From Paracoccus marcusii (GTDB taxonomy: Bacteria; Pseudomonadota; Alphaproteobacteria; Rhodobacterales; Rhodobacteraceae), in assembly GCF_006151785.1 (NCBI RefSeq), contig NZ_VDDD01000003.1, forward strand, positions 1 to 64,000: a DNA stretch of 64,000 bases. Reading direction: 5' to 3'. Position 1 is the stretch's first letter. The number at the start of each line of letters is the position of its first letter. Under the pieces are notes generated by a model, which was not told where the DNA came from, searched no databases, and saw only the letters and a list, made by a program, of their open reading frames with translations. Positions 6,060-58,950 of the stretch are shown one piece after another. A program made the position numbers and the translations under genes.

Positions 6060-7421
6060 ATGACCGACGCCGCCGACCCCCTTCGCCTTCAGCGCCTGTC
6101 CGAGGCGCTGATCGATGCCGCGCGCCGTGCCGGGGCCGACCAGGCCGACGCGCTGGCCGTCGACGGGCGGTCCGTCAGCATCGACATGCGGGCCCGCGCG
6201 CTGGAACAGGCCGAACGCGCCGAAGGGCTGGAGATCGGGCTGCGCGTGCTGGTGGGCGGGCGCCAGGCGGCGGTGTCGTCGTCCGACCACCGCGACGCCG
6301 CCATCGTCGAGATGGCCGCCCGTGCCGTCGCCATGGCGCGCGAGGCGCCGGTGGACGATCATCTGGGCCTGGCCGATCCCGGCCAGCTGGCGCGCCATCG
6401 CGACGCCGCCGGCCTGGAACTGGCCGAGGACGCGCCCGAACCCGAACCCCAGCACCTGCAGGACCTGGCGCAGCGCGCCGAGGCCGCGGCGCTGGACGTG
6501 GCGGGGATCTCTCAGGTCGAGGCGGCCAATGCCAGCTACAGCCAGCGGCGCATGTGGCTGGCCGCGTCGAACGGGTTTTCGGGCGGCTATGCCCGAACCG
6601 GGCATTCGCTGTCGGTCGTGGCGATCACCGGCGAGGGGCTGCGGATGGAGCGCGATTATGCGGGCGAATCGCGCACCTTCGCCGCCGACCTGCCCACCCC
6701 CGAGGAGATCGGCGCCCTGGCCGCGGAACGCACGCTGGCCCGCGCAGGCGGGCGCAAGCCGCCGACGGGCGCCTATCCCATCCTTTATGACCGCCGCGTG
6801 TCGGCCTCGCTGATCGGCCATCTGCTGTCGGCGGTGAACGGGTCGTCCATCGCGCGCGGGGCCAGCTGGCTGCGGCGCGACCTGGGCCAACCCGTCCTGC
6901 CCGCCGGCATGGACCTGGCCGAGGATCCGCTGCGCCCGCGCTATCCCTCGTCGCGCCCCTTCGATGCCGAGGGACTGCCCACGCGGGCGCGGATGATCGT
7001 GGCCGACGGCGTGCTGCAGGGCTGGACGCTGGACCTGGCCACGGCGCGCAAGCTGGGGATGGACAGCACCGCATCGGCGGCGCGGGGGCTGGCCTCAAGC
7101 CCGTCCCCCAGCCACAGCAACGTCATCCTGACGCCGGGGCGCGTCAGCCGCCAGGACCTGATCGAACGGATGGGCACCGGCCTGATCGTGACGTCGATGC
7201 TGGGGGCGTCGGTGAATGGCACCACGGGCGATTATTCCCGCGGCGCGGCCGGGTTCTGGGTTCAGGACGGCCGCATCGCCTGGCCGGTGAACGAATGCAC
7301 CATCGCGGGCAACCTGCGCGACATGCTGATGACGCTGGAGGCCGCCGACGACGCCCTGCCGTGGCGCGGAACCGAGGTGCCCAGCCTGCTGGTCCAGGGC
7401 ATGACCGTTGCCGGGGGCTGA
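6060..7421 (+). CDS. pmbA: Metalloprotease PmbA/TldE homologue
   Basis: 453 residues, close to the usual PmbA length (about 450). The family pattern is clear: the N-terminal ARRAGADQADAL segment, the SNGFSGGYARTGHSLSVVAI core, HLLSAVNGSSIARGASWLRRDLGQPVLP, and a C-terminal SMLGASVNGTTGDYSRGAAGFWVQ block. In E. coli TldD and TldE (PmbA) form a heterodimeric protease that degrades unfolded peptides and matures microcin B17; TldD carries the zinc site and PmbA lacks it. The HExxxH zinc motif is indeed absent here. The start is ATG 6060. The next gene begins inside its last codons, suggesting coupling. Confidence 0.92.
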   Translation: MTDAADPLRLQRLSEALIDAARRAGADQADALAVDGRSVSIDMRARALEQAERAEGLEIGLRVLVGGRQAAVSSSDHRDAAIVEMAARAVAMAREAPVDDHLGLADPGQLARHRDAAGLELAEDAPEPEPQHLQDLAQRAEAAALDVAGISQVEAANASYSQRRMWLAASNGFSGGYARTGHSLSVVAITGEGLRMERDYAGESRTFAADLPTPEEIGALAAERTLARAGGRKPPTGAYPILYDRRVSASLIGHLLSAVNGSSIARGASWLRRDLGQPVLPAGMDLAEDPLRPRYPSSRPFDAEGLPTRARMIVADGVLQGWTLDLATARKLGMDSTASAARGLASSPSPSHSNVILTPGRVSRQDLIERMGTGLIVTSMLGASVNGTTGDYSRGAAGFWVQDGRIAWPVNECTIAGNLRDMLMTLEAADDALPWRGTEVPSLLVQGMTVAGG

Positions 7422-8184
7422 GGCCGACCTGGACCTGCTGACCGCCGCCGCGCGGGACGCGGGGCGGATCGCCCTGCGGTTCTGGCGGCGCGATCCGCAG
7501 GCCTGGGACAAGGGCGGCGGCGCGGGCCCGGTGACCGAGGCCGACCTGGCGGTCAACGACGCCCTGCACGCGACCCTGACCGCCGCGCGCCCCGATTACG
7601 GCTGGCTGTCCGAGGAATCCGAGGCCGACCCCGCCCGCCTTGACGCCGAACATTGCTTCATCATCGACCCGATCGACGGCACCCGCGCCTTCATCGACGG
7701 GCAGGACGGGTTTTCCCATTCGCTGGCCGTGGCACGGGGCGACCGGATCGTGGCCGCGGTCGTCCACCTGCCGGTGCTGGACCTGACCTATGCCGCCCAT
7801 GTCGACGGCCCCGCCACGCTGAACGGCGCCCCCATCGCCCCGACCAATGCATCGATCGAGGGCGCACGGGTGCTGACCTATCGCGCGGTGGCCGATGCGC
7901 CGAACTGGCACAGCGGCATGCCCGGATTCCGGCGCGAGTTCCGGTCTTCGCTGGCGTGGCGGCTGTGCCTTGCGGCCGAGGGACGGTTCGACGCGGCGCT
8001 GTCGCTGCGCGCGGCGTGGGAATGGGACATCGCCGCCGGGGCGCTGATCGCGGAACGCGCGGGCGCGCGCGTGACCGACCGGCGGGGCCAGCCGATGCGG
8101 TTCAACAGCGAGGCCGCGCAGGTGGACGGGCTGATCGTGGCAGGCTCGCGCCTGCACGGCGCGCTGCTGGCCGCGCTGCGCTAG
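7408..8184 (+). CDS. Inositol monophosphatase family phosphatase (CysQ-like)
   Basis: 258 residues from TTG 7408, which overlaps the end of pmbA by 14 bases. All metal-binding motifs of the lithium-sensitive phosphatase superfamily are present: SEESEAD (about residue 71), DPIDGTRAFIDG (about 90) and WEWDIAAGALIAERAGA (about 209). The sequence looks closest to 3'(2'),5'-bisphosphate nucleotidase CysQ, which recycles the PAP left by sulfate activation, but inositol or histidinol phosphate could also be substrates. Its TAG stop shares the palindrome CTAG with the stop of the convergent regulator gene. Confidence 0.85.
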   Translation: MPGAEADLDLLTAAARDAGRIALRFWRRDPQAWDKGGGAGPVTEADLAVNDALHATLTAARPDYGWLSEESEADPARLDAEHCFIIDPIDGTRAFIDGQDGFSHSLAVARGDRIVAAVVHLPVLDLTYAAHVDGPATLNGAPIAPTNASIEGARVLTYRAVADAPNWHSGMPGFRREFRSSLAWRLCLAAEGRFDAALSLRAAWEWDIAAGALIAERAGARVTDRRGQPMRFNSEAAQVDGLIVAGSRLHGALLAALR

Positions 8185-9719
8185 ATCAGCCGTGATCCCG
8201 CGACCTGCAGCAGGCCCAGCCTGCGCAGGCTGTCCACCGGGTATCCGTCGCTGCCCATCAGGTCCAGGCTGAAATCCGGCTCCAGCCTGCGCAGGGCCAG
8301 GAGGGCGCGGACGGTGCCCTCCTCGTCGCGCTGCGCGTATCGCAGGGCGGCCAGAAAGCGCAGGGCAGGGCGGTTGTCGGGGGCAAAGCGGTGCACGGCC
8401 TCCAGGTGGCGGGTGGCGGCGGACAGATCGCCCGCGCGCATCATCGCCACCCCGATTCCCAAGTGCCAATTGGCGGGGTTCAGACTGGACAGCGCCTGGT
8501 CCAGCCCGGCCCGCGCCTGCGCCGCGGAATCGGCAAAGCGGTCTACACCGGCCAGCGCGCGGGAATGGGCCAGCCGCGCCAGGGGGTTGCCCGGATCGGC
8601 CAGCACGGCCTGGCGCGACAGGTCGAAGGCGATCTGATCGCGGTCCAGATAGGCCTCGACCACCGATTGCACGGCCAGGGCGGTGGCGTGGAAGGGCGCG
8701 GCCCGACGGGCGCGGGCGGCAAGCTCTGCCGCCTCGGCGATGGCCTGGCGGGGATCGGGGGTCAGGCGTTCAAAGGCATGGGTCGTGCGGATCCAAGCGC
8801 GCAGCGACAAGGTCACCGCCGGGGTGATGCTGTCGCCCAGCTGCGCCAGGACCTGATCGGCGCGCGCCAGACGGGACGCGGAAAAGCTGAACACGTCCGC
8901 GAACGAGATTCCCATCGCCGCCCCAAGCGCCCGCCCCTGGTCCAGCACCTGCAGCATCCCCAGGCAGCAGCGCGCGGCCAGGTCGTCCAACCGTCCGTCC
9001 AGGCCGGCCAGCGGCGCCGTCAGCCTCTGTGACCACATCACCCGGCCCGACGGCTGGTGGATCAGCCGCACCAGCAGGCTGAAGACGCCGCCCTGCACGT
9101 TCGCCATCGACGATACCCGCACATAGGCCCCCCGCGGCGCAGCCCCCGGCGAAAGGACCGCGATGGGCAGCAGGTCTGCGGCCCTGCCCGCGGCCTCGGA
9201 CAGGATCATCGTGGCAAGCACCATCGCGTCCTGCCCGATGGACACCGGATCGGACAGCAGCAGGTCGGGCAGCGCATCCGCCGTGGCGACCTGGGGCATG
9301 CGGGCGGCCGCGGTCTGGCGCGCATCACGCAGCCAGTCCTCGAACTCCGGGTCGGGGATGTCCAGGTCGGCCGCGAATTCGGGCACCTGGCCGTCGGGAC
9401 CGGGGCGGGCGGCCAGATCCACCTGCACCCGGTCGGGGTCCAGCCCGACCCAGCCCGGCCCCGTGACCAGCGCGTCGCGGGCGGGGCCAAGGCACTGACG
9501 GATCTCTCTCAGCAGCTGGCGCAGGCTGGCATTGCCGTGATCGGGGTCGCGGTCGCTGAACAGCAGGTCCTGCAGCCGCGCCCGCGTGACGCGCAGGCCC
9601 CGGGCCGTGCCCAGTACCGCCAGCACCCCCCGGGCCCGCATGCCCCGCGGCGTCAGACGGTGGTCGCCCGGGCCGGTCATCTCGACCGGACCGATCAGGT
9701 GCAGGGTCAGACGGTCCAT
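8181..9719 (-). CDS. SARP-like transcriptional regulator with TolB-like and TPR regions
   Basis: 512 residues from ATG 9719 (an in-frame TTG at 9758 would add 13). Residues 1-90 look like the winged-helix DNA-binding domain of SARP/AfsR regulators: LHLIGPVEMTG, LTPRGMRARGVLAVL, and LLFSDRDPDHGNASLRQLLREIRQ. The middle (about 160-260) resembles the TolB-like domain found in such regulators (DLLPIAVLSPG, QPSGRVMWSQRLTAPL). The C-terminal half is helical, alanine-rich and TPR-like. No membrane segment or phosphorylation site is seen. It is divergent from the haloperoxidase-like gene 97 bases away and probably controls that operon; this is inference from position. Confidence 0.75.
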   Translation of the reverse strand: MDRLTLHLIGPVEMTGPGDHRLTPRGMRARGVLAVLGTARGLRVTRARLQDLLFSDRDPDHGNASLRQLLREIRQCLGPARDALVTGPGWVGLDPDRVQVDLAARPGPDGQVPEFAADLDIPDPEFEDWLRDARQTAAARMPQVATADALPDLLLSDPVSIGQDAMVLATMILSEAAGRAADLLPIAVLSPGAAPRGAYVRVSSMANVQGGVFSLLVRLIHQPSGRVMWSQRLTAPLAGLDGRLDDLAARCCLGMLQVLDQGRALGAAMGISFADVFSFSASRLARADQVLAQLGDSITPAVTLSLRAWIRTTHAFERLTPDPRQAIAEAAELAARARRAAPFHATALAVQSVVEAYLDRDQIAFDLSRQAVLADPGNPLARLAHSRALAGVDRFADSAAQARAGLDQALSSLNPANWHLGIGVAMMRAGDLSAATRHLEAVHRFAPDNRPALRFLAALRYAQRDEEGTVRALLALRRLEPDFSLDLMGSDGYPVDSLRRLGLLQVAGSRLI

Positions 9720-9816
9720 GGCGTTGTCCCAAAGGGCGATTTGCAAAAGGTTATCCAATCACGGCTTCGTGTGATAGATTAATCGGGTCACCCGTTCCTG
9801 TTTTCCCTGGTGCATC

Positions 9817-10875
9817 ATGTCCCTGTTCCACGCCAAACATGCCAAGCATGCCAAGTCCGACGACATGCCGGACGGCCAGGGGGCGCTTTTGTCCCTTGCC
9901 CTGATGCGCACGCGCGATGCGATCGCGGGGATCGAGGATCCGCAGGGCCGGGGTGGTTCCCCCGCCATGCTGGCGCCGGGTGCGCGGCTGGCGCGGCTGG
10001 ACCCGGACCACCGCGCCGCAATCCTGCTGGCGGAACTGTCCGAGGATATGCCCCTGTCGGCCGATGACGGGATCGCCGGTGCATCATCCGCCAGCCTGCT
10101 GTGCCGCCAGGCGGACGGAACCTGCGCCTCGCTGGTGCGGATCGACCGGCCCGATCTGGTGCAGTTCCGCGAGGCTGCGGCGATGGTCGGGCATTACGCC
10201 GAACTGCGCCCCGACCGCGCCCCCGAGATCGAGGTCCAGACCCACGGCCTGATGCCGTTCTTTGCCGCGATCCGCCCCTTGGAGCCGTCGCGGAACCCCG
10301 CCACGCTGGAGATGCTGGCCCGCGCGATGGACCTGACCACCGCCGCAGTCATGCGTCTCAAGCTTGCGTTGGCCTGTCCGCGCCCCACGCAATTCAGCGA
10401 CCTGATCCAGCCGATGATCGCCTGTCCCAGCCATCCTACCCTGCCCAGTGGCCATGCGACCCAGGCCTTTTGCCTGGCCACGCTGCTGACGCGGCTGGAC
10501 GACCCACGGGCGCCGCTGCGGGCCGACGACCCGCTGTTCCGACTGGCCTGTCGAATCGCGGTGAACCGGACGGTGGCCGGAGTGCATTTCCCCGCCGACA
10601 GCGCCGCGGGGGCGGTGCTGGGGATGCAGCTGGCGCATTACATGCTGGCCCGCGCCGATCCGGCCGCGACCGCCCACGGTGCGCAGTTCGACGGGCGGCT
10701 TTATCACGACGGCGGGGCCGTGCGCGATTTCCACTATGGCATTCTGACCGAAATTCTGAACGACGCCGATCCCGCCACAAGGCTCAGGGGACCTGCACTG
10801 ACCCCGCGCCCCGCACCGTTATGGGCCACGCTGGTCGCGCGCGCCCGGGACGAACGGGCAGACCAGTGGAGCTGA
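9817..10875 (+). CDS. Vanadium haloperoxidase/PAP2 superfamily enzyme
   Basis: 352 residues. The full phosphate/vanadate-binding signature is present: K182-x6-R189-P190 (KLALACPRP), P210-S-G-H213 (LPSGHATQ) and R251-x5-H257-x3-D261 (RTVAGVHFPAD). No signal peptide or convincing membrane helices are visible, which favours a soluble vanadium-dependent haloperoxidase-type protein over a membrane PAP2 lipid phosphatase; phosphatase and peroxidase activity cannot be told apart here. Residues 5-13 are three tandem HAK tripeptides. The stop overlaps the start of the protease gene by 10 bases, so the two proteins are probably made together. Confidence 0.8.
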   Translation: MSLFHAKHAKHAKSDDMPDGQGALLSLALMRTRDAIAGIEDPQGRGGSPAMLAPGARLARLDPDHRAAILLAELSEDMPLSADDGIAGASSASLLCRQADGTCASLVRIDRPDLVQFREAAAMVGHYAELRPDRAPEIEVQTHGLMPFFAAIRPLEPSRNPATLEMLARAMDLTTAAVMRLKLALACPRPTQFSDLIQPMIACPSHPTLPSGHATQAFCLATLLTRLDDPRAPLRADDPLFRLACRIAVNRTVAGVHFPADSAAGAVLGMQLAHYMLARADPAATAHGAQFDGRLYHDGGAVRDFHYGILTEILNDADPATRLRGPALTPRPAPLWATLVARARDERADQWS

Positions 10876-12692
10876 CAGCCATATGGACCACCCCGGGTGC
10901 TGCCCCGGCGGGGCTGTCGCCCGCGCTGGTGGAGTGGTGCCGGCGACACCGAGTCCCCCCGCCCACATCCGCGCCCGACCTTCCCGCGCTGATGGCGCAG
11001 GCGTTCGGGCGGATGGATCGGTCCTGGTTCCTGCCATCCGCGGTCCTGCCCCCGGACGCGGTGAACCGTGACCTGGCCCCTGCGGGCGCCGGTCCGCTGA
11101 TGGCTGCGGGCGCGCTGCCGGACCCGGACCGTGGCTGCATCATCGCCGTCATAGACGATGCCATTCCGTTCGCACATCAGCACCTGCGCCTGCCGGGGGC
11201 GCTGTCGCGGGTGGCGTCGCTGTGGGTCCAGGATGCCCGCGTCGATCCCGACGGTCCGGGCCGCGACCTGCCATGGGGAATCGAGCTGCGGGGCGACAGG
11301 ATCGGCGGCTGGCTGGCGGGACTGGAATCGGGAGCGATCGCGGCCGAGGATGCGGTTTATCGCAGGGCCGGGGTCGTGGCGATGGACCGCCGCACGACGC
11401 ACAGCGCGGCCTTTGCCGCGGGTCACGGCGCGGCGGTGGCGCTGTTGGCCGCGGGCTTTGCACCGGACGATCCGCTTGCCTGCGATCATCCGGTGATCGG
11501 CGTGACGCTGGCCCCCGGGGTGATCGCGGACACCTCGGCCACGCTGGCCCAGGACCCGCTGCTGGCCGCCATCGTCTTCGTCATCACCCGCGCCCGGATG
11601 CTGTGCCGCCAAGTCGAGGCCGCGCATGGCCTGCCTGTGGACAGCGTGCGCCTGCCCGTGGTGCTGAACCTCAGCCTGGGTCTGACAGCGGGGCCGCGCG
11701 ACGGCACGGCCCTGCTGGAACGCTTTCTGGATGCGCTGGCGACCCATGCGTCCACCAGACTGGGGCCGGTGCATGCGGTGCTGCCCACCGGCAATCATCG
11801 CATGGCGCGCCTGCGCGCGACCCTGCGTCCCCAGGGCAGGATCGGATGGCAACTGCCGCCCGACGACGCGACCCAGACCCCGCTGGAGATCTGGGGGCCG
11901 GTCCGTCCCACGCGACCGGACTGGCCCATGCGGATCGGGCTGACGCCACCCGGCGGGACCGAGGCCCGGACCCGCTTTTGCGCCCCCGCCCAGTCCAGCA
12001 CGCTGCGCGACGGGCGGGGGCGCGATCTGGGGCGGGCGTTCTATCGGGTGATGCCGCATCCCGACGGCTGGCGCGAATGCATGACGCTGATCATGGCGCC
12101 GACCTGCCCCGCGGCCGCGGGCGACAGCTGGGCGCCGCCCGGCCGATGGGGGCTGGCGCTGGTGCAGGGGGACGGCGATCACGCGGTGTCGGTCCAGCGT
12201 GACGACGTCCTGCGTGGCTTCCCGCGAGAGGCGCGGCAAAGCTGGCTGTCCCAGCCAGCCTATGCCGACATGGACGCCCGGGGGTTTCCCGTCCTGCTGG
12301 ACCCGCGGGCCACTGGCCCCGCGCGGGTGCAGCGGGCGGACACGGTGAACGCCTATGCGACGGGGCGGCACAGCCTGCGGGTGGGCGCGGTGGACCGGAG
12401 CGGGCGGGGGCTGGCCTATGCGTCGTTGATCGGGGTGGCGCAGGGCGGTGATCTCTTGGCCTGCGTGGACCGGTCGCAGGCCTGGCCCGGCATGATCGTG
12501 CGCGGCCGCACCAGCGGCAGCTTTGCCGTGATGAGCGGCAGCTCGATGGCGGCCCCTCAGGCGACACGCTGGCTGGCCGGACACCTGGCCGACGGGGCGC
12601 GGCCCGACAGCCGCGCGGCGATCATCCGGCTGGTGCAGGGGGCGACAGACGTCCCCGTGCCGGTCCTGCCGACCGACCCGCCGCGGGACTGA
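10866..12692 (+). CDS. Subtilisin-like serine protease (S8 family), atypical
   Basis: 608 residues from GTG 10866, which overlaps the previous gene; any longer start would run deep into it. The catalytic triad can be read: Asp97 in IIAVIDDAIP (the usual DTG is DDA), His187 in AGHGAAVA, and Ser at about 560 in SGSSMAAPQATRW. The oxyanion Asn is probably in VLNLSLG or PTGNH. About 90 residues precede the protease core. No signal peptide, propeptide or membrane anchor is seen, which is unusual for subtilases and suggests a cytoplasmic role. It is co-transcribed with the haloperoxidase-like gene. Substrate unknown. Confidence 0.82.
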   Translation: MELTAIWTTPGAAPAGLSPALVEWCRRHRVPPPTSAPDLPALMAQAFGRMDRSWFLPSAVLPPDAVNRDLAPAGAGPLMAAGALPDPDRGCIIAVIDDAIPFAHQHLRLPGALSRVASLWVQDARVDPDGPGRDLPWGIELRGDRIGGWLAGLESGAIAAEDAVYRRAGVVAMDRRTTHSAAFAAGHGAAVALLAAGFAPDDPLACDHPVIGVTLAPGVIADTSATLAQDPLLAAIVFVITRARMLCRQVEAAHGLPVDSVRLPVVLNLSLGLTAGPRDGTALLERFLDALATHASTRLGPVHAVLPTGNHRMARLRATLRPQGRIGWQLPPDDATQTPLEIWGPVRPTRPDWPMRIGLTPPGGTEARTRFCAPAQSSTLRDGRGRDLGRAFYRVMPHPDGWRECMTLIMAPTCPAAAGDSWAPPGRWGLALVQGDGDHAVSVQRDDVLRGFPREARQSWLSQPAYADMDARGFPVLLDPRATGPARVQRADTVNAYATGRHSLRVGAVDRSGRGLAYASLIGVAQGGDLLACVDRSQAWPGMIVRGRTSGSFAVMSGSSMAAPQATRWLAGHLADGARPDSRAAIIRLVQGATDVPVPVLPTDPPRD

Positions 12693-12770
12693 TCCTTTCA
12701 CGCCGCTTTCACGGCGGCATGCGAATCACGATGCACAGGACGAACGGATCGTCCGCACGGGGGACAGGCG

Positions 12771-13148
12771 ATGAAGGACAAGGACACCGCGGAATTCCAG
12801 GACATGCTGGCCGCCCTGCGGATGCTGGGCGCGGACCCGGCGCCCGGCGCGTCGGTCGGGCGGGCGATGGCGCGGATGCAGACCACCGGCACCGCCGACC
12901 GGCCCAGCTGGGCCGCGCTGCAGCGGCTGGAGCGCGAGAACGAGCTGTTGATCGATCACGCGGAGATGCTGGCCTGCGCGCTTGGCGCCTGTCCGAACTG
13001 TTGGGGCACGCTTGAGGATTGCGAGGAATGCGGCGGCGTCGGGCGGCCCGGCGCCTTCAACCCGGACCGCACCTGCTTTGACCATTTCGTGCTGCCGGTC
13101 ATCATCCGGGTGCTGGGCCACGGGCCCACCGAGACATCCGGCGCCTGA
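12771..13148 (+). CDS. Small cysteine-motif protein of unknown function
   Basis: 125 residues starting at ATG 12771 with GGGGGA upstream. Residues about 74-92 contain CPNCWGTLEDCEECGGVGRPG, two CxxC pairs (the second CEECGGVGRPG) similar to a DnaJ-type zinc-binding repeat; another Cys follows in DRTCFDHF. The N-terminal half is helical. I recognise no named family. It lies 78 bases after the protease gene and before a strong terminator, so it is probably the last member of the haloperoxidase-protease transcription unit and may act as an adaptor or scaffold. Confidence 0.7.
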   Translation: MKDKDTAEFQDMLAALRMLGADPAPGASVGRAMARMQTTGTADRPSWAALQRLERENELLIDHAEMLACALGACPNCWGTLEDCEECGGVGRPGAFNPDRTCFDHFVLPVIIRVLGHGPTETSGA

Positions 13149-13223
13149 TCCGCGCCGGAAGGGATACCTGCAGGGCCGTCTGTCGTGAGCGGTGTGGTGG
13201 TATTGGTGCCCGTCCTGCGGGTG

Positions 13224-13267
13224 GATCGGCGGAAGGCCGTCTGGGGCGGCCTTCCGCCGATCTTTTT
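13224..13267 (+). terminator. Strong intrinsic terminator
   Basis: A perfect 16-bp stem (GATCGGCGGAAGGCCG at 13224-13239 with its complement at 13247-13262), a 7-base loop and a T-run at 13263-13267. It ends plus-strand transcription of the protease module just before the convergent pqiC gene. Confidence 0.9.
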
Positions 13268-13932
13268 CAGAACAGCGGCGGCAGGTCGAACGGATCGGAC
13301 GCGGCCGGACGCGTGGTGGCGATGGTCGCCCCCGGCCCCGACAGCGTCGCGATCTGCTGCGCCAGGATCGAGATCGCCTGGCTGGCCGCGGCCGCCGTCG
13401 CGGCCGGCCCCTGCGCGGTCATCGGAACGCGGATGTCAAAGCTGCGCGCGTGGTTCGTGCCGCCCCCCGAAAGGCCGTCGTCGGACACGAAATACCGCCC
13501 CGACAGGCGATAGGTGGTGTCGGCCTGCGCCAAGGCGCGTTCGACGCGCACCTCCAGGATGCGGGCGGGGGGCTGGGCCAGGGGCCAGGGCTCGCTGATG
13601 ACGGTGGCGCCGGACACGTCGCTGATCGCGCGGGCCAGCGTCGTGGTGAAGGACCGGGCCGGGTCGTCCGCCCACAGGTTGTCCGAATTGGACCGCACCG
13701 CCCCGTCGCCGGTCTGGAACGCGACCTCCTGGTCGGCGGCGTATTCGGGCAGGGACACGTCCTTGAGTTCCGCGGTGCCAAGGCGGTTGGGCACCTGGAC
13801 CCCGGCCACCGGGGGGTCGATCAGGAAACGCCCGGTCTTTTCCGGATTGGAACAGGCGCCCAGCAGGGACGCCCCGATCAGGGCGGCGATGGGCAGGGCA
13901 GGCAGGCGCAGGGCGCGGTGGGGCAGCATCAT
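13267..13932 (-). CDS. pqiC: ABC-type transport auxiliary lipoprotein (PqiC-like)
   Basis: 221 residues with a lipoprotein signal peptide and lipobox (GASLLGAC, Cys about residue 27). The mature part has the PqiC/YmbA (DUF330-type) pattern: FLIDPPVAGVQVPNRLGTAELKDVSLPEYA and the R-rich LEVRVERALAQADTTYRLSGRYFV strand. In E. coli, PqiC is an outer-membrane lipoprotein that docks the PqiB needle, helping phospholipid movement across the envelope. It lies 2 bases after pqiB and ends the operon. Confidence 0.85.
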   Translation of the reverse strand: MMLPHRALRLPALPIAALIGASLLGACSNPEKTGRFLIDPPVAGVQVPNRLGTAELKDVSLPEYAADQEVAFQTGDGAVRSNSDNLWADDPARSFTTTLARAISDVSGATVISEPWPLAQPPARILEVRVERALAQADTTYRLSGRYFVSDDGLSGGGTNHARSFDIRVPMTAQGPAATAAAASQAISILAQQIATLSGPGATIATTRPAASDPFDLPPLF

Positions 13933-23206: not shown

Positions 23207-24069
23207 TCCAGCGCGACCCGCCGCGCCTCGTCGTCGACATCGGGGCGCTGGCCGAACCAACGTTCAAAGCCTGGGGCCGCCTGGTGCAGCAGCATTCCCA
23301 GACCATCGACCACGCGGCATCCGCGGGCCTGCGCCTCGGTCAGGAAGGGGGTCATCAGCGGGGTATAGACCAGGTCTGTGACCAAGGCACCGGGCGACAG
23401 CGCGTCCAGCGGCACCCGCAGCGGCTGCTTTCCATCCATCCCAAGCGAGGTGGCGTTGACGACGGTGGATGCGCCTTCCAGCATGTTGCCGACCTGGGCC
23501 CAGTCATAGACGACCAGGCGCGCCCCGAACTCTGCCTTGATCTGTTCCGCCCGCAGCCGCGTCCGGTTGGCGATGCGCAACTCCTTGACGCCGCTGTCCA
23601 GCAGGGAGGCGACCACCGCCCGTGCCGCACCCCCCGCACCGATCACCGCGGCGGGGCCCAGATCGGGCTGCCAGTCGGGTTCGTTCTGCCGCAGGTTCGC
23701 GATGAAGCCATAGCCGTCGGTATTGTCGGCATGGATCTTGCCGTCGGGGCGAAAGATCAGCGTGTTGGCGGCACCGATCAGGGCCGCGCGATCCGTGACC
23801 GTGTCAGCCAGCGTCAGGACCGCCTCCTTGTGGGGAATGGTGACATTGGCACCGACGAAACCGGCACGCGGCAGGATGCGCAGAACCTCGGCCAGATGTT
23901 CGGGCATTACCGGGATCGGCACGTAATGGCCGGGCAGGCCATAGCGGGCCAACCAATGTCCGTGCAGGCGCGGAGAGCGCGAATGCGCGATGGGCATGCC
24001 GATCACGCCGGCCAGGGGCGCGTGGGTGATCTGGCTGGCGGGCGGGTCGTCTTGCATCGGCTTGATCAT
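23203..24069 (-). CDS. aroE: Shikimate dehydrogenase
   Basis: 288 residues from ATG 24069 (GTG 24072 is an alternative). Substrate and cofactor motifs are clear: GMPIAHSRSPRLHG at the N-terminus, NVTIPHKEAV with the catalytic Lys, NTDGYGF, the NADP loop GAGGAARAV and the NRT basic motif. It reduces 3-dehydroshikimate to shikimate in aromatic amino acid synthesis. First gene of the operon, transcribed away from the DnaA-box region that starts about 100 bases upstream. Confidence 0.94.
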   Translation of the reverse strand: MIKPMQDDPPASQITHAPLAGVIGMPIAHSRSPRLHGHWLARYGLPGHYVPIPVMPEHLAEVLRILPRAGFVGANVTIPHKEAVLTLADTVTDRAALIGAANTLIFRPDGKIHADNTDGYGFIANLRQNEPDWQPDLGPAAVIGAGGAARAVVASLLDSGVKELRIANRTRLRAEQIKAEFGARLVVYDWAQVGNMLEGASTVVNATSLGMDGKQPLRVPLDALSPGALVTDLVYTPLMTPFLTEAQARGCRVVDGLGMLLHQAAPGFERWFGQRPDVDDEARRVALE

Positions 24070-24550
24070 CACATGGCGTCTTTCAGTGCAGACTAGGCAC
24101 ACGGACGGCGTGACGAAAGCCCCTGTCGGCATCTGGCGGCATATCCGTGGCGGATCGGGGCAGGCACGCTGTGGACAAATCTTCGGAGGAATCGGCGCCG
24201 GGGTTGGTGGCAACCCGCGTCAATCCCCTGCCTGTCCTGATTTGCCCTTGGAACAAAGCAGAAACAGCAGGGCGTTTTCCACAGGGGGACGAATCGGGCG
24301 GCCCGATCGGGCGGCCTGTGGAGGAATCAGCGGCCAAATCATTATCCGCAAAGTTATCCACATATGATCGCTTTGTTTACAAACAGTTTTCAGGTCGGCT
24401 TGCCGCTTTCGCACATGCTTGTCCACAACGCCCGATTCTGAGGAAATCCCGGTGAACAGAGTCCAATTCCTGCTATCCACAGGCCCTACTTCAACAACAT
24501 TCCTTTCTTTATCTTTCTTATTTAAGAGAAGACCGAAGAGAGGTTTCGCG
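24070..24550. other. Probable chromosomal replication origin (oriC)
   Basis: A 480-base non-coding gap between divergent aroE and hemJ. It holds a perfect DnaA box TTATCCACA at 24354-24362. Near matches are TTGTCCACA (24170-24178, minus strand, and 24419-24427, plus), TTTTCCACA (24275-24283), TTATCCGCA (24342-24350), CTATCCACA (24473-24481) and a weaker one at 24317-24325 (minus). An AT-rich, pyrimidine-rich stretch at about 24498-24530 could be the unwinding element. Gene context (rho, mnmE, mnmG, rsmG, parAB and two parS sites within 8 kb) is that of alphaproteobacterial origins. Confidence 0.8.
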
Positions 24551-24997
24551 ATGATCGACGGACTGGCCCTGATTTATCCCTATGTGAAGGCGTTCCACGT
24601 CATGGCCGTCATTTCGTGGATGGCGGGCCTGTTCTACCTGCCCAGGCTGTTCGTCTATCACGCCGAACGCAGTAGGGAATCGGCCGAACCGGTCGCAAGC
24701 TTCATGATCATGGAACAGAAGCTGCTGCGGCTGATCATGAACCCGGCGATGATCGCCACGTGGATCAGCGGGTTGGCCCTGGTGATGACGCCGGGCATCG
24801 TCAGCTGGGACATGACCTGGCCGTGGGTCAAGGCGGCCTGCGTGATCGCGATGAGCGTGTTTCACATGTGGTGCGCGCACGAACGGCGGCATCTGTCGGC
24901 CGGAATGGCCCTTGCCGGGCGGTCCTATCGGATGATGAACGAGGTGCCGACCCTGCTGATGGTGGGGATCGTGACCGCCGTGATCGTCAAGTTCTGA
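24551..24997 (+). CDS. hemJ: Protoporphyrinogen IX oxidase HemJ
   Basis: 148 residues from ATG 24551. It is a four-helix membrane protein with the HemJ/UPF0093 pattern: YPYVKAFHVMAVISWMAGLFYLPRLFVYHAE, EQKLLRLIMNPAMIATWISGLAL and a C-terminal EVPTLLMVGIVTAVIVKF. The conserved His in FHVMAVISW and the W-M-A-G-L-F-Y segment are typical. It oxidises protoporphyrinogen IX in heme synthesis. Located directly beside the DnaA-box cluster. Confidence 0.92.
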   Translation: MIDGLALIYPYVKAFHVMAVISWMAGLFYLPRLFVYHAERSRESAEPVASFMIMEQKLLRLIMNPAMIATWISGLALVMTPGIVSWDMTWPWVKAACVIAMSVFHMWCAHERRHLSAGMALAGRSYRMMNEVPTLLMVGIVTAVIVKF

Positions 24998-25006
24998 TCG
25001 AAAAGA

Positions 25007-25035
25007 TTGACTCGTGACCGGCGCGGCCTTATTTG
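25007..25035 (+). promoter_or_regulatory. Putative sigma-70 promoter of rho
   Basis: TTGACT at 25007-25012 and TATTTG at 25030-25035 with a 17-base spacer, about 90 bases upstream of the rho ATG. The remaining leader could hold rho autoregulatory sequence, but I see no clear structure there. Confidence 0.5.
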
Positions 25036-25124
25036 CGCCCCAACCCCGGCCGTCCGGTACGGGATTCCCTTGAACGCCTGTCTGCTCCGTCCGATACGTC
25101 GCGCGGCTGAAAGTTTGCATCAGA

Positions 25125-26396
25125 ATGACCGAAGAACGCCTGAATCTGTCCGACCTCAAGGCAAAGAGCCCCGCCGACCTGCTGTCGATGGCCGAGGAGT
25201 GGGAGATCGAGAACGCCTCGACCATGCGCAAGGGCGAGATGATGTTCTCGATCCTCAAGGAGCATGCCGAGGAGGGCTGGGAGATCGGCGGCGAAGGCGT
25301 GCTGGAGGTCGTTCAGGACGGCTTCGGCTTTTTGCGGTCGACCGAGGCGAACTATCTGCCCGGACCGGACGACATCTATGTCAGCCCGGACATGATCCGT
25401 CAGCATTCGCTGCGTACGGGCGACACGGTGGACGGCGTCATCCGTGCGCCTGGTGACAACGAACGGTATTTTGCGCTGACGAAGGTCGAAAAGATCAACT
25501 TTGAAGAGCCGGAAAAGGCCCGCCACAAGGTCGCATTCGACAACCTGACGCCGCTTTACCCGGACGAACGCCTGAACATGGAGATCGAGGATCCCACTGT
25601 GAAGGATCGCAGTGCCCGGATCATCGATCTGGTGGCGCCGATCGGCAAGGGTCAGCGGTCGCTGATCGTGGCACCGCCGCGGACGGGCAAGACGGTTCTG
25701 CTGCAGAACATCGCCCATTCGATCGAGAAGAACCATCCGGAATGCTATCTGATCGTCCTGCTGATCGACGAGCGCCCCGAGGAAGTGACGGACATGCAGC
25801 GCAGCGTGCGCGGCGAGGTCGTGTCCTCGACCTTCGACGAACCGGCCAGCCGCCACGTTGCTGTGTCCGAGATGGTCATCGAAAAGGCAAAGCGTCTGGT
25901 CGAGCACAAGCGAGATGTTGTGATTCTTTTGGACTCTATCACAAGACTTGGTAGAGCGTTCAACACCGTTGTCCCCAGCTCGGGCAAGGTGCTGACCGGT
26001 GGTGTCGATGCGAATGCATTGCAGCGACCCAAGCGGTTCTTCGGCGCGGCACGCAATATCGAGGAAGGCGGAAGTCTGACGATCATCGCCACGGCGCTGA
26101 TCGACACCGGATCGCGCATGGACGAAGTGATTTTCGAGGAGTTCAAGGGTACGGGCAACAGCGAGATCGTCCTGGACCGCAAGGTTGCAGACAAGCGCGT
26201 CTTCCCGGCCATGGACATCCTGAAATCCGGTACGCGGAAAGAGGAACTGCTGGTCGACAGCAAGGACCTTCAGAAGACTTATCTGCTGCGTCGCATCCTG
26301 AATCCGATGGGCACGACTGACGCCGTTGAGTTCCTGATTTCCAAGATGAAACAGACCAAGAGCAACGCCGAGTTCTTCGACTCGATGAACGCCTGA
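25125..26396 (+). CDS. rho: Transcription termination factor Rho
   Basis: 423 residues, normal length. N-terminal helical domain, RNA-binding OSB fold with [27 protein letters not shown], then the RecA-like ATPase with P-loop [37 protein letters not shown] (Walker B and Q-loop side) and [19 protein letters not shown] (R-loop). Rho is a hexameric RNA helicase that ends transcription of untranslated RNA. It directly precedes mnmE. Confidence 0.97.
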
Positions 26397-26406
26397 CGAG
26401 GCAGCC

Positions 26407-27672
26407 ATGGACCTGATCTTTGCAGAAGCCACCCCGCTCGGGCGGGGGGGAGTTTCTGTCATCCGTCTGAGCGGCACGAATGCTCGGCTGACTGCCGAGC
26501 GTCTTGTCGGCCAAATGCCTGACGCGCGTCATGCGTATTTTCGGACCTTGAGGCACGACGACGAGCCGATCGACCAGGTTCTGGCAATGTGGTTCCCAGA
26601 GGGTCAGAGTTTTACCGGCGACGAAGTGGCAGAATTGCATCTGCATGGTGCACCTGTGATTTCACGACGGGTAGGGTCAGCGCTGCTGTCCATGGGTGCC
26701 AGACCAGCGGAAGCCGGCGAGTTCACACGGCGAGCCTTTCTGAACGGCCGGATGGATCTTGCCGAAATCGAGGGGCTGGGTGATCTCCTTGCAGCAGAGA
26801 CCGAGGCTCAGCGTAAGTTGGCCTTGCGCACTGCGAGCGGCGAACTGGCCCAAAAGGCGTTGGATTGGCGGCAACTTCTGATCGAAGCTGGCGCCTTGGT
26901 CGAGGTCAGTGTTGATTTCGCGGACGAAGACGTTCCTGATGAGGTTCCCAATCGGGTTTTCGAAGCAATTGCAGAACTGCGCGAAGCGCTGCAGCGCGAG
27001 TTGGCAGGATTCTCATCGGCCGAACGGATCAGGATGGGGTTCGAAGTCGCTATCATCGGACCGCCAAATGCCGGAAAATCGAGTCTCCTGAACAGGTTGG
27101 CCCAGAGAGATGTAGCGATCGTATCTGATCGGGAGGGAACGACAAGAGATGTGATTGAACTCAAGTTCGATCTGAACGGGTTGCCCGTGACGTTTCTTGA
27201 TACGGCAGGTTTGCGGGAATCCGAGGATGCTGTTGAGAGGATTGGGATAGACCGCGCATTGAATCGCGCGAAAAGTGCTGATCTGCGTATCCATCTTTCG
27301 CGTGACGGGGATATCGTACAGGAACTTTGGCACCCTGATGATGTCATTGCGGTCAGCCATGCGGACATCCATGAAAGTGACGCTGATCTGACACTATCCG
27401 CAGTGACCGGGCATGGTATTGACAAAATGCTTGGTATGATTGGTGAAATACTGAGAGACCGTGTTTCATCTGCAGGTCTGATCAGTCATGAGCGGCAGCG
27501 TTTAGAAATCATTACCGCACTTGAGGCAGTTGAAGGTGTAGGGGGAGTGCCCGCAGAACTTATTGCGGAGAAGCTTCGTCTATCTGCAGCATCGTTAGAT
27601 CGTTTACTTGGAAGAATCGGTGCGGACGACTATCTTGATGTTATCTTTTCGTCGTTTTGCATCGGCAAGTAG
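26407..27672 (+). CDS. mnmE: tRNA modification GTPase MnmE (TrmE)
   Basis: 421 residues, somewhat shorter than the usual 450. N-terminal tetrahydrofolate-binding domain (EATPLGRGGVSVIRLSG, FTGDEVAELHLHG, RRAFLNGRMDLAEIEGLGDLL), an inserted G domain (P-loop GPPNAGKSSLLN, DTAGLRESED) and the C-terminal catalytic tail FCIGK. With MnmG it installs the 5-carboxymethylaminomethyl group on wobble uridine of tRNAs. From about 27100 onward the base composition becomes visibly AT-richer than in rho. It ends 12 bases before the mnmG GTG start. Confidence 0.95.
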   Translation: MDLIFAEATPLGRGGVSVIRLSGTNARLTAERLVGQMPDARHAYFRTLRHDDEPIDQVLAMWFPEGQSFTGDEVAELHLHGAPVISRRVGSALLSMGARPAEAGEFTRRAFLNGRMDLAEIEGLGDLLAAETEAQRKLALRTASGELAQKALDWRQLLIEAGALVEVSVDFADEDVPDEVPNRVFEAIAELREALQRELAGFSSAERIRMGFEVAIIGPPNAGKSSLLNRLAQRDVAIVSDREGTTRDVIELKFDLNGLPVTFLDTAGLRESEDAVERIGIDRALNRAKSADLRIHLSRDGDIVQELWHPDDVIAVSHADIHESDADLTLSAVTGHGIDKMLGMIGEILRDRVSSAGLISHERQRLEIITALEAVEGVGGVPAELIAEKLRLSAASLDRLLGRIGADDYLDVIFSSFCIGK

Positions 27673-27676
27673 GAGT

Positions 27677-27692
27677 TGTTTCACGTGAAACA
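27677..27692. other. parS: parS centromere site 1 (perfect)
   Basis: The exact 16-bp palindrome TGTTTCACGTGAAACA recognised by ParB. It spans the mnmG translation start: the GTG at the palindrome centre (27685) is the likely start codon. It lies about 3.2 kb upstream of parB. Confidence 0.95.
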
Positions 27693-29544
27693 TTACGACG
27701 TCGCAGTCATCGGTGGGGGGCACGCAGGCTTGGAAGCAGCTACCGCTGCGGCGCGCCTCGGTGCAACCGTAGCCCTGATCACCATGCGCCGCGAGGACAT
27801 CGGTACGTTATCCTGCAATCCTGCTATCGGTGGACTTGGTAAAGGTCATCTGGTCCGCGAAGTCGACGCGATGGACGGTGTGATGGGACGGCTGGCTGAT
27901 CAAGCCGGCATTCAGTTTAGACTTCTGAATCGTCGAAAGGGGCCTGCAGTTCAAGGGCCTAGGGCTCAGATGGATAGAGATCTTTATCGCGCCGCCGCTT
28001 GGGAGCTTATCTCCAGCTACGTTGGCGTTGATATCGTGTTCGGCGAGGCTGTTGAATTTCTTGGCGATGCAAAAGTTGTCGAAGGTGTAAGCCTATCCGA
28101 CGGAAGAGACGTGCGTTCTAAATCGGTTGTCTTGACAACAGGCACGTTCCTCAATGGCATGATACATATTGGCGACGTCAGCCGTCCTGCCGGTCGTTGG
28201 GGGGATAGGGCGGCAAGCAGGCTTGGTGAAAGCCTTGCCAAGTTTGCCCTGCCACTGGGTCGGCTGAAAACTGGAACGCCGCCGCGGATCAGAAAATCGT
28301 CAATCGATTGGGATATTCTTGAATCTCAACCAGGTGACGAAACGCCGGTCACCTTCTCTTATCTTCCTGCCGCGTCGTTAGTTCAGCAGATCGATTGCAA
28401 GATCACACATACAAATGCGACGACACATCGAATCATCAACGATAATATTCAGAAATCTGCGATGTATGGCGGTCACATCAGTGGTCGCGGACCCAGATAT
28501 TGCCCCTCTATAGAGGATAAAATAATTCGCTTTGCCGACAAAGATTCCCACCAGGTATTTCTGGAGCCGGAGGGATTGGATAGCGATATCGTTTACCCGA
28601 ACGGCATTTCAACTTCTCTGCCTGAGGATGTGCAGCTAGCTTATGTTCGGTCCATCCGGGGGATGGAGAACGCGGAGATCACTCAGCCAGGGTATGCGGT
28701 CGAGTATGATTATATCGACCCTACGTCCCTAGATACGACGCTCGCAGTCAGATCAGTTCGTGGCCTGTTCTTGGCAGGTCAAATTAACGGAACGACAGGA
28801 TACGAGGAAGCAGCTGCCCAAGGACTCGTTGCTGGCTTGAATGCCGCGCTTAAGGCGGCGGACAAGGCACCTGTGACCTTTAGCCGGACAAACAGCTATA
28901 TCGGTGTGATGATCGATGATCTGGTCACTAGAGGCGTGACAGAACCTTATCGCATGTTTACATCCCGCGCCGAGTTCAGATTGACCTTGCGGGCGGACAA
29001 TGCAGATCAACGTCTTACCCCGATGGCAATAGAGATAGGGTGCATTTCGAATGAACGGTCTGTGTCGTTTCAGGCGCGTCAATCGAAATACACTTACGCA
29101 CGCGATCGTCTTAGTTCTGTTTTCTTATCATCAAATGATCTGAACAATGCCGGATTCCACGTCTCAAGGGACGGCCAAAGAAGGACTGTCTTTAGCTTGC
29201 TCGGTCATAGCGATATCAATCCGGACAAACTCGCAGATATTGTTCCTGAACTGGCTGCTGTCTCCAGTGAAACATTGGTGCAGCTGCGGAACGATGCTTT
29301 GTATGAGCAATATACTGGTCGGCAAAACAAAGATGCTGAATTAATCAGAGCTAATGAGGCTACATCTCTCGACCCTGATATTGACTACAGCGGCTTGGGT
29401 GGTCTCTCGTCTGAATTGCGTGGAAAGCTTTCGGATCGTCGACCTAAGACGGTGTTCGAGGCTTCAAAGATTGAAGGAATGACGCCAGCAGCGTTGACGC
29501 TATTAATCGTCGCTTCGAAGACAAGCGTGCGTCGTACTGCATGA
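27685..29544 (+). CDS. mnmG: tRNA modification enzyme MnmG (GidA)
   Basis: 619 residues, normal length. FAD-binding motif [21 protein letters not shown] at the N-terminus, [23 protein letters not shown], and the C-terminal substrate region. It works with MnmE in wobble-uridine modification. I choose GTG 27685 because AGGAG (27671-27675) is 9 bases upstream; a TTG at 27676 is in frame but abuts the ribosome-binding site. Either way the parS palindrome is part of the initiation region. Codon use is AT-rich relative to the window (hand count of 28501-28560 gives 25 G+C of 60). Confidence 0.95.
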
Positions 29545-30131
29545 TCGTTTCACGTGAAACACATGAGAGGCTTACCGCATACGAAGCTCTCGTACGGAAA
29601 TGGAATGCGAAAATAAACTTGATTGCGCCTTCGACACTTCCGGAGTTCAACTCAAGGCATATTCAGGACAGCATTCAGATCTTCGATCACGTACAATTTC
29701 CGGAAGGGAATTGGGTAGACCTTGGAAGCGGCGCCGGGCTTCCTGGCATAGTTGTCTCTATATATGCTCAGAAGGCCCCGCTGACAGTGTCCTTAGTTGA
29801 AAGCGATCAGCGGAAGTCGGCGTTTTTGCGCACCGTCATTCGAGAGTTATCGTTGCAAAATGTATCGATCCTGACAGGTCGTATAGAAAATGTACCCCCA
29901 CTCGCCGCAAACTTTGTTTCTGCCCGCGCGCTTGCACCATTGTCGGTCCTTCTTTCGATGGTCCGAAGGCATATGCACCAGGACGGCACCGCAATATTCC
30001 TGAAAGGCCGTTCGTGGAAAGCGGAATGCGACGAAGCAAGGAAGGAATGGCGATTTGACGTTACCAACTTTCCAAGTAAAACAGATCCAGACGCAGCCAT
30101 CCTAAAAATTACCGGAGTCTCGCATGCCTGA
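29541..30131 (+). CDS. rsmG: 16S rRNA (guanine-527-N7) methyltransferase RsmG (GidB)
   Basis: 196 residues. Motifs [21 protein letters not shown] and the SAM-binding [17 protein letters not shown], then [11 protein letters not shown], define RsmG. It methylates G527 of 16S rRNA. The ATG at 29541 overlaps the mnmG stop (ATGA). Codons 2-7 (I-V-S-R-E-T) are the second parS site, so the protein N-terminus is dictated by the centromere sequence. The gene is AT-rich like mnmG. Its last codons overlap parA by 8 bases. Confidence 0.94.
29546..29561. other. parS: parS centromere site 2 (one mismatch)
   Basis: CGTTTCACGTGAAACA, identical to the 16-bp parS consensus except for the first base; the inner 14-bp palindrome is intact. 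It lies inside the coding start of rsmG, about 1.35 kb before parB. Confidence 0.9.
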
Positions 30132-30909
30132 ACAGCATATTGTGGCAATCGCGAACCAGAAGGGCGGCGTTGGCAAGACGACGACCGCTGTTAATTTGGG
30201 TGCTGCTTTGGCGCAAGCAGGCTATCCGACGATACTTGTTGACCTGGACCCTCAAGGAAATGCGTCAACGGGACTGGGGATTGGGACCGAAGACCGTGAT
30301 TTCACGGTCTATGACCTTTTGACCGGCGATGCGAATCTCATGACTGCAGCCGTCGACACTGCGGTTCCGAACCTGCGGGTTGTCCCATCGACATCCGATC
30401 TTGCGTCTGCCGATGTACAACTGTCCCAAGTTGCTGATCGCACGCGTCTTTTGGAACGCCAGCTATCTGATGCACCACATGGAACGATCGTGCTGATCGA
30501 CTGTCCGCCGGCCTTGGGTCTGTTGACGGTTAATGCGATGGTTGCGGCGTCCAGTGTTCTTGTTCCGCTTCAGGCGGAATTCTATGCCTTGGAGGGTTTG
30601 TCGCAATTGCTGGGTACGGTGAAGCAGGTCCGCCAAGGCGCCAATCCCAAGCTCCGCATCAATGGCATTCTTCTCACGATGTCCGATTATCGGAACAACT
30701 TATCGCAGCAGGTGGAGGCAGACGCGCGCGAGACGCTTGGCGATCTTGTCTATCCCACGGTCATTCCCAGAAACGTCCGCGTGTCCGAGGCCCCGTCACA
30801 TGCGCAGCCGGTGTTGATCTATGATCCGTCGTCAAAGGGCAGCCACGCCTATCGTCAATTCGCGACCGAATTCACGGCGCGCCTGAAACTGATCCCGGAG
30901 ATTGCGTGA
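30124..30909 (+). CDS. parA: Chromosome partitioning ATPase ParA
   Basis: 261 residues. Deviant Walker A KGGVGKTTTAVNLG at the N-terminus, DLDPQGNASTGLG, and IDCPPALGLLTVNAM (Walker B). ParA forms nucleoid-bound dimers whose hydrolysis is triggered by ParB, pulling origin regions apart. It lacks an N-terminal DNA-binding extension, as is usual for chromosomal ParA. Forms an operon with rsmG (overlap) and parB (one-base overlap). Confidence 0.96.
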   Translation: MPEQHIVAIANQKGGVGKTTTAVNLGAALAQAGYPTILVDLDPQGNASTGLGIGTEDRDFTVYDLLTGDANLMTAAVDTAVPNLRVVPSTSDLASADVQLSQVADRTRLLERQLSDAPHGTIVLIDCPPALGLLTVNAMVAASSVLVPLQAEFYALEGLSQLLGTVKQVRQGANPKLRINGILLTMSDYRNNLSQQVEADARETLGDLVYPTVIPRNVRVSEAPSHAQPVLIYDPSSKGSHAYRQFATEFTARLKLIPEIA

Positions 30910-31802: not shown

Positions 31803-31844
31803 CCATATATAGTTTATGGTAAGAAAATTACTGCCAAATCCTGA

Positions 31845-32201
31845 TTATTGGCTGGGCCGCGTTACAAGAAATAGCGCGACCAGCCCACAGATCGCCGCCT
31901 GAGTCGCGACAACCCAAGGCGGCATCCCCATCCACCACGAAATGCCGACCCCGGAGCTCATTGCGGTGATGGCCCAGATCTTGGCCAATCGCCCGACGAC
32001 ACCACGTTCCTGCCACGCACGCACGGGTGGTCCGTAGGTGGGGTGATCCAGGATCCGACGCTCCAATGTCGGAGAGGATCGTGCAAAGGCCCACGCGGCC
32101 ACCAGAAGGAAGGGGACCGTGGGCACCACCGGCAAGGCGACACCGATGATCCCGCACAAGGCAAACAGCCACCCCAAGACCAGCCACATCCGCCGCCGCA
32201 C
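31845..32201 (-). CDS. YbaN-like DUF454 membrane protein
   Basis: 118 residues from GTG 32201 (ATG 32189 is also possible). The DUF454 pattern is clear: LGWLFALCGIIGVALPVVPTVPFLLVAAWAFARSSPTLERRILDHPTYGPPVRAWQE near the N-terminus and two further membrane helices at the C-terminus. Function unknown. It starts 3 bases after the hemW stop and is the last gene of the rph-rdgB-ridA-hemW operon, convergent with parB. Confidence 0.85.
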   Translation of the reverse strand: MRRRMWLVLGWLFALCGIIGVALPVVPTVPFLLVAAWAFARSSPTLERRILDHPTYGPPVRAWQERGVVGRLAKIWAITAMSSGVGISWWMGMPPWVVATQAAICGLVALFLVTRPSQ

Positions 32202-58938: not shown

Positions 58939-58950
58939 CGGACAAGGTGA

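Follow-up and report, generated by a model that had tools for sequence, protein, structure and literature searches.

Why should a putative transcriptional regulator, an enzyme of the PAP2/vanadium-haloperoxidase fold, a subtilisin-like protease of the S8 family and a small four-cysteine protein stand side by side? The question is raised by a locus of Paracoccus marcusii within positions 1 to 64,000 of contig NZ_VDDD01000003.1 (this whole stretch of 64,000 nucleotides is referred to below as the window), which a preliminary description had read as one tightly coupled unit facing a SARP-type regulator (hereafter REG). All four open reading frames (ORFs) are where that description had placed them, with the GTG start of S8 overlapping the stop codon of PAP2 by 10 nt, and the strong terminator that it saw at the end of the unit is confirmed by its calculated stability (-39.2 kcal/mol for nucleotides 13222-13268, z=-7.56, with 0/200 shuffled sequences equally good). 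However, it had missed a feature on which our answer is centred, namely an array of three identical tripeptides, (HAK)3, at the start of the PAP2 protein. The best supported account of the locus, which on the strength of the sequence comparisons we consider to have about an even chance of being right, is that it encodes a tag-and-reader signalling module, in which the tetratricopeptide repeat (TPR) superhelix of REG would recognize the array on the PAP2 enzyme.

The core of the module consists of three genes. In a scan of GTDB species genomes, from which the best 80 of 375 relatives were kept (mostly from Alpha- and Betaproteobacteria), REG, PAP2 and S8 were adjacent in all 80 loci, the S8 gene of one of them (L107) being cut by the contig end, and among the 187 unique PAP2s REG adjoins 182. 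The PAP2 family was also found in 13/385 genomes of the class and 20/398 of the phylum (both at E<=1e-20), and S8 in 41/198 genomes of the family. The co-occurrence in other genomes that the preliminary description had proposed to check is therefore conserved, and its coupled unit stands for REG, PAP2 and S8 but not for the cysteine protein, which accompanies the module only at the level of the genus. In RefSeq the three core products are named, in Phaeobacter, 'winged helix-turn-helix domain-containing protein', 'phosphatase PAP2 family protein' and 'S8 family serine peptidase', while REG of Paracoccus sp. AK26 is called 'SARP family transcriptional regulator'. No description of the gene combination or of the repeats was found with multi-term literature queries that covered few subscription journals; the module is apparently new, within the reach of that search.

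Some individual loci depart from the common picture. The module of Phaeobacter inhibens M647 (L182:1-4415) looks decayed, with REG in two annotated pieces, a shorter PAP2 and a short hypothetical ORF in place of S8. In L264:5103-8462 a protein of 1120 aa with SAM, cyclase, AAA and TPR parts is encoded downstream of a (DAR)7 module. A locus recorded as Oceanobacillus (L100) probably comes from a mislabelled or contaminated assembly, as comparison with L043 (genome G004, of the window's family) suggests, and the match in a metagenome-assembled genome of Anaerolineae (L080) may be a similar case.

As in the window, the N-terminus of PAP2 in the other modules is a homogeneous array of a unit of 2-4 residues, for instance (GGF)12, (SAY)10, (GTQ)12 or (NGL)16; Phaeobacter inhibens has the unit NSF, and Bradyrhizobium SGA or GGA. 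An array of at least three copies is present in all 182 PAP2s with an adjacent REG; an exact repeat near the start had been found in the first 17/17 homologues and was found again in the later 81/81, one of which (L110) is partly masked, with (WVA)7 readable ahead of the masked stretch. L257, the only PAP2 that lacks an array, also lacks a REG within its locus of 9.5 kb, and in L256 the array lies at the contig edge, with a papain-like ORF downstream. The unit is 3 residues long in 156 arrays, 4 in 20, 2 in 9 and 6 in 1, and the arrays span 9-57 residues (median 27). In the 168 arrays with a Met upstream, the distance from the closest one to the start of the array has a median of 5.5 residues. 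Ordinary PAP2s from 21 genomes related to that of the window carry no array (0/24; 29 of 30 ORFs were recovered, the other 5 being of the module type and all with arrays). Among 2471 non-PAP2 ORFs of the same loci none has a comparable array, and a repeat of as few as six residues within the first 45 occurs in just one, from which it follows that (HAK)3 in the window is not a product of chance. The repertoire of units is wide, with 67 different ones among the first 131 proteins, and none of 20 within-genome pairs of modules (from 16 genomes) shares its unit, which is a weak observation taken alone, as most of these pairs are distant. The suggestion of the preliminary description that peptides might be processed here still has a place, the candidate peptide now being the array.

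The unit is identical within a protein and replaced whole between lineages. It is the same in 40/42 pairs of PAP2s with more than 90% identity, in 16/36 at 80-90%, in 15/30 at 70-80% and in 10/78 at 60-70%, and rarely beyond. Between close relatives a single position of the unit may be exchanged throughout the array, as between (GGV)12 and (GGI)12 at 90.6% identity, (GGF)12 and (GGL)11 at 89.7%, and (SGF)11 and (SGL)11 at 89.4%. In Paracoccus sp. AK26 (L185:5728-6959), where an ORF of 57 aa is annotated between PAP2 and S8, the array is mixed, (NAH)3(TAQ)4, and looks like a unit caught in the middle of its replacement.

At the level of codons the copies are far from identical. Synonymous differences between adjacent copies are saturated (pS=0.89) and nonsynonymous ones are rare (pN=0.024, a value favoured by array borders that were set by similarity). 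Recent slippage as the whole cause of the homogeneity can thus be ruled out, because the copies differ in their codons. Moreover, adjacent copies share 28.0% of codons, compared to 37.0% when the order of copies is shuffled (0/1000 as low; 125 arrays), and with one array taken per 60% cluster they are less alike than non-adjacent copies in 54/68 arrays and more alike in 13 (Wilcoxon p=6.5e-8). For the same amino acid three residues further on elsewhere in these genes there is no such deficit, the sharing being 0.383 against 0.376 expected, while in the arrays it is 0.279 against 0.402 expected. The repeat is therefore kept in the protein, while slippage-prone repeats in the DNA are avoided or lost. 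Nevertheless, single units are still gained and lost, since Phaeobacter strains have 5, 6 or 7 copies in the 10 loci that were read.

REG, the proposed reader, comprises a constant C-terminal TPR superhelix and an exchangeable N-terminal domain. The protein from the window has only weak matches in Pfam, below the cut-off (NNH6 and TPR). A profile made from 11 REG N-termini matches the PDB structures of EmbR (4.7e-5) and AfsR (5e-4), and Trans_reg_C is found by Pfam in 6 of these 11 members at E<=1 (best 0.0018), the sequence from the window being without this match. The preliminary description had called the protein a SARP: this holds for the winged-helix N-terminus, which REG shares with SARP, AfsR and EmbR by profile, and not for the BTAD domain, which is absent from the full-length regulator of the window (Pfam, E<=1), whereas a true SARP encoded in L050 matches it at 2.2e-12. 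In place of BTAD, REG has a middle part that we take to be TolB-like, followed by the TPR C-terminus. The C-terminal profile matches consensus TPR (CTPR) proteins and OGT; TPR superhelices of this kind bind extended peptides. With profiles of our own, the N-termini of 156 REGs from loci of at least 8 kb were typed as SARP-type (67), class III cyclase (57), OmpR-type winged helix (31) or unassigned (1), and Pfam confirmed the cyclase in L037 and L039 and Trans_reg_C in L038. Hence DNA binding is not a constant part of REG, as more than a third of the N-termini (57/156) are cyclases. All divergently placed REGs are of the SARP type (37/37). The preliminary description had also held that SARP regulators are rare in this group and pointed to control as in secondary metabolism, neither of which agrees with a SARP-type domain that occurs in 67 of 156 REGs and is one of three interchangeable N-termini. 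By hydropathy, no transmembrane-like stretch (Kyte-Doolittle >=1.9) was detected in 182 REGs.

The tie between REG and the array emerges from their evolution: replacement of the unit is accompanied by divergence in the TPR half of REG, not in S8. In 54 disjoint nearest pairs of modules, 30 of which differ in unit, the divergence of each part was regressed on that of S8 and on unit change (for S8 itself, PAP2 divergence served as the regressor in place of S8 divergence). The TPR half showed an extra divergence of +0.112 with unit change (t=4.88, 0/2000 permutations), compared to t=2.65 for the first half of REG (13/2000), t=1.58 for the first 60 PAP2 columns after the array (182/2000) and t=-1.43 for S8 (1770/2000). 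In the 17 pairs with a divergent REG (12 differing in unit), in which the DNA for the C-terminus of REG lies well away from the array, t reached 4.44 for the TPR half (85/2000), 0.37 for PAP2 and 0.27 for S8. In a first set of 40 pairs, the top segment of a sliding comparison lay in the C-terminal part of REG (2/500 for the variable residue, 0/500 for the unit). Global mutual information between the unit residue and the alignment columns picked out mostly REG columns; it ignores relatedness and was replaced by the paired tests. Candidates at the level of single residues (REG column 585, PAP2 256 and S8 1430) failed the correction for 1247 columns and were discarded.

The protease of the window has an intact catalytic machinery, with Asp97, His187, Ser560 and the oxyanion Asn310 invariant in an alignment of 32 S8 sequences. 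Its structural model (pLDDT 80.6) gives Csp germination proteases as the best Foldseek matches (E about 1e-19), and these are also its best profile matches; unlike them, the S8 of the module does not occur in spore-formers, has no Csp partner genes and is linked to REG and PAP2. By hydropathy alone, no signal-peptide program having been run, none of 156 such proteases shows a transmembrane-like stretch (0/156 at Kyte-Doolittle >=1.9). The third gene of the module is usually an endopeptidase, and it belongs to several unrelated classes: across the 187 loci it is a Csp-like S8 in 156 and in the truncated L107, another S8 group in 7 (Pfam E 2e-14 to 4e-20), a glutamic Peptidase_A4/G1 in 5 (E 2e-18 to 2e-28) and a papain-like C1 protease in 5, of which 3 pass the Pfam cut-off and two (L253 and L255) fall below it. 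At the level of clades the type of unit tracks the class of the protease, with dipeptides containing R/K in 6/7 loci with the other S8 group, tetrapeptides in 5/5 C1 loci and xxN tripeptides in 5/5 A4 loci, an association that clade structure alone could explain. As far as covariation goes, the unit does not serve the adjacent Csp-like S8 as its P1 specificity site, and this idea was rejected (t=0.31 for the whole S8 protein, and the above -1.43 in the enlarged set). An apparent fusion of a SARP domain with an S8 without its N-terminal part, in L048 from a genome that is 78% complete, was taken as decay or an assembly error.

On these grounds the module may be pictured as follows. The TPR superhelix of REG would bind the array, and the many identical units would make the binding multivalent and independent of register; the enzyme and the regulator would thereby be tied into one complex that couples the enzyme to the output of REG, be it transcriptional or that of a cyclase. 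With less assurance, the protease may end this state by a cut in or around the tag, which would switch both REG (its DNA binding or cyclase output) and the soluble enzyme; a role as eraser or releaser is suggested because a protease is present so constantly, and in so many unrelated classes. A bolder version, which we find rather doubtful, is that of a freely re-codable peptide barcode: the superhelix would read a polymer of one unit on the enzyme, nearly any di-, tri- or tetrapeptide could serve as the unit, lineages as well as paralogues within a genome would keep private codes, and the exchangeable protease would be the eraser.

Several observations weigh against REG as the reader of the array. 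PAP2 itself co-diverges with the unit (t=2.52, 29/2000). In the scan of the 54 pairs the top segment lies in PAP2 (t=4.2), just over that of REG (3.9), and in the divergent subset one S8 segment has t=4.5; these values are uncorrected, as is the t=4.1 of one REG segment in 11 pairs made of new loci only, which otherwise show little. Joint recombination could mimic the covariation, because the 3' end of REG adjoins the array in modules encoded on the same strand. Three modules with S8 have arrays and no detected REG. Finally, no protease was identified in 13 of the 187 loci, some of which had only short, unscanned downstream ORFs, and because of these loci the protease cannot be regarded as obligatory.

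The protein that carries the array has its active-site residues in place. The preliminary description had considered its vanadate/phosphate site intact, and in an alignment of 34 PAP2 sequences K182, R189, S211, H213, R251 and H257 are indeed invariant and G212 is conserved in at least 90%, which corresponds to the anion site K-x6-RP, PSGH and R-x5-H of the PAP2 superfamily, shared with vanadium haloperoxidases and class A acid phosphatases; PSAH replaces PSGH in 3 of 18 PAP2s compared (L042, L043 and L053). H206, seven residues before the PSGH histidine, is likewise invariant in the 34 sequences and aligns with a histidine of the bromoperoxidases 1qi9 and 1qhb that is missing from the Pseudomonas aeruginosa acid phosphatase (7f17). 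With this second histidine, a trait of bromoperoxidases, the protein is a candidate haloperoxidase-type enzyme. The core of its structural model (pLDDT 91.1; below 50 for residues 1-15, i.e. the array region) resembles class A acid phosphatases and, to a lesser degree, vanadium peroxidases, the TM-score normalized by the query being at most 0.42 for the acid phosphatase 7f17/7f18 and 0.27 for a bacterial iodoperoxidase. Unlike these enzymes it has an N-terminal array, and beyond the core the fold matches are weak. By hydropathy, a transmembrane-like stretch (Kyte-Doolittle >=1.9) is present in 6/187 PAP2s.

Table 1. Elements of the module in the window; positions are counted from the first nucleotide of the window
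Feature	Position	Strand	Remarks
REG regulator	8181-9758	-	SARP-type winged-helix N-terminus, presumably TolB-like middle, C-terminal TPR superhelix; divergent from PAP2; alternative ATG start 9719
(HAK)3 tag array	9829-9855	+	MSLF-HAKHAKHAK-SDD, start of the PAP2 protein
PAP2/vanadium-haloperoxidase-fold enzyme	9817-10875	+	anion site intact; Pfam PAP2 E=5.5e-12
Csp-like S8 subtilase	10866-12692	+	triad intact; Pfam Peptidase_S8 E=7.3e-5; Foldseek Csp matches
Small four-cysteine protein	12771-13148	+	CxxC-x6-CxxCxGxGxPG; companion of the module at genus level
Strong intrinsic terminator	13223-13264	+	

The coordinates of these elements are collected in Table 1. The ORF upstream of the module (6060-7421) presumably belongs to the TldD/PmbA protease family, which it resembles. 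At 24001-32000 and 58001-62000 of the window the GC content falls to 0.51-0.59, compared to 0.65-0.73 around, perhaps owing to acquired DNA.

The small cysteine protein, for which no Pfam family was found, had been proposed as a fourth member of the unit. Modules occur in at least 8 of 13 genomes of the window's genus, and the cysteine protein adjoins S8 in 5 of these 8, at the same chromosomal site and with the same neighbours; the units at this site are HAK in the window and in G1117, QHG in G1119 and G1128, and QGQ in G1126. In G1121, G1122 and G1124 the modules lie elsewhere, without the cysteine protein in the stretches read. A syntenic locus of the same genus (L305), with 91% DNA identity over 10.5 kb, also has (HAK)3; its cysteine protein is 97.6% identical to that of the window and its PAP2 85%, compared to 95-98% for the flanking proteins. 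In L305:2648-7105 REG and S8 are each split over two frames, and PAP2 and the cysteine protein are open. Outside the genus, a search of 198 family genomes yielded true matches of the cysteine protein in only 2, both within another kind of gene cluster (L050:5136-11800 and L051:4046-9697), where it is accompanied by a glycine-rich and a very acidic protein and by an S8 of a different kind, so that membership in the general module does not hold. The cluster in L050 also has the true SARP with BTAD and a coiled-coil protein, and the S8 frame in L051 includes a phage-tail-lysozyme domain. A further match in L052 (E=2.9e-4) was rejected as a cysteine-rich chance frame.

The arrangement of the module invites comparison with RRNPP(A) quorum sensing (Rap, NprR, PlcR, PrgX, Rgg, AimR), in which case the protease would free peptides from the array, and these, acting in the cell of origin or in its neighbours, would bind the TPR part of REG and switch the output domain at its N-terminus. 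In RRNPPA receptors the N-terminus is the most variable part, the C-terminal TPR superhelix binds the peptide, and the peptide gene is usually located immediately downstream (PMC9765709); propeptides with several copies of the pheromone are known (PMC11343458), and the peptide encoded beside its receptor co-diversifies with it (PMC9765709, PMC10075063, PMC11343458). REG has the same layout, its TPR half and the unit co-diverge, and the operon contains a protease. However, the 'peptide' of the module is a homogeneous array fused to an intact enzyme, an export signal is not apparent, and no co-divergence with the unit is seen for S8. REG begins with a SARP-type, OmpR-type or cyclase domain, and most of the hosts belong to Alpha- and Betaproteobacteria, whereas the RRNPP systems described come from Firmicutes and from mobile elements of these bacteria (PMC10075063). 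A separate exported propeptide was not found, small ORFs having been searched unsystematically. We regard this explanation as unlikely.

More unlikely yet, in our estimate, is a cell-suicide or defence module, in which REG would sense a threat, the protease and PAP2 would act as effectors, and the tag would keep the enzyme sequestered or silent. Its distribution would fit, being sporadic: the PAP2 family is present in 120/394 genomes of the family. Thirty-five plasmid records, 11 of them typed as conjugative, carry the PAP2 family of the module, the proteases are exchangeable, and the module evolves fast compared to its flanks, as seen for PAP2 in L305. On the other hand, anti-phage defence models gave no meaningful match (a single one, to the small protein, at E=0.033; immunity islands were not surveyed), and no match was found in phages.

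That the array is a silk-like or glycine-rich tail for self-assembly or condensates, its regularity being selected for this and not for recognition by a partner, seems to us very unlikely. Many units do consist of two small residues followed by an aromatic or aliphatic one (GGF, SAY, GAY, SGF), and the array has low confidence in the structural model, but many others are charged or polar (SGD, NAE, NR, NGK, GTQ) and share no stickiness, and self-assembly would leave the co-divergence of the REG TPR half and the tie between array and REG unexplained. To the view of the preliminary description, a SARP-controlled four-gene operon for secondary metabolism, oxidative defence or peptide maturation, we attach hardly any credence: despite the divergent SARP-type regulator and the haloperoxidase-type histidine, the module does not resemble a cluster for secondary metabolism under a SARP, as the N-terminus of the regulator is exchangeable for a cyclase, the fourth gene is specific to the genus, and no biosynthetic genes accompany the module (in an all-against-all comparison over 20 loci nothing else recurs in more than 4).

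Should the tag-and-reader account be correct and REG read the array, the modules would represent a large natural experiment in the recognition of repeat peptides, with the reader of each unit encoded next door; they would supply matched TPR-peptide pairs for studying and designing such recognition, together with a set of orthogonal tags provided by nature. The barcode, if true, would be a new kind of address code between proteins and, for proteobacteria, the first case of RRNPP-like signalling by peptides. The strong selection for an identical protein repeat, together with the avoidance of identical neighbouring codons, is a natural counterpart of the codon scrambling by which engineers stabilize repetitive genes. 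Finally, hundreds of genes annotated just as 'phosphatase PAP2 family protein', 'S8 family serine peptidase' or 'hypothetical protein' gain a common, testable frame.

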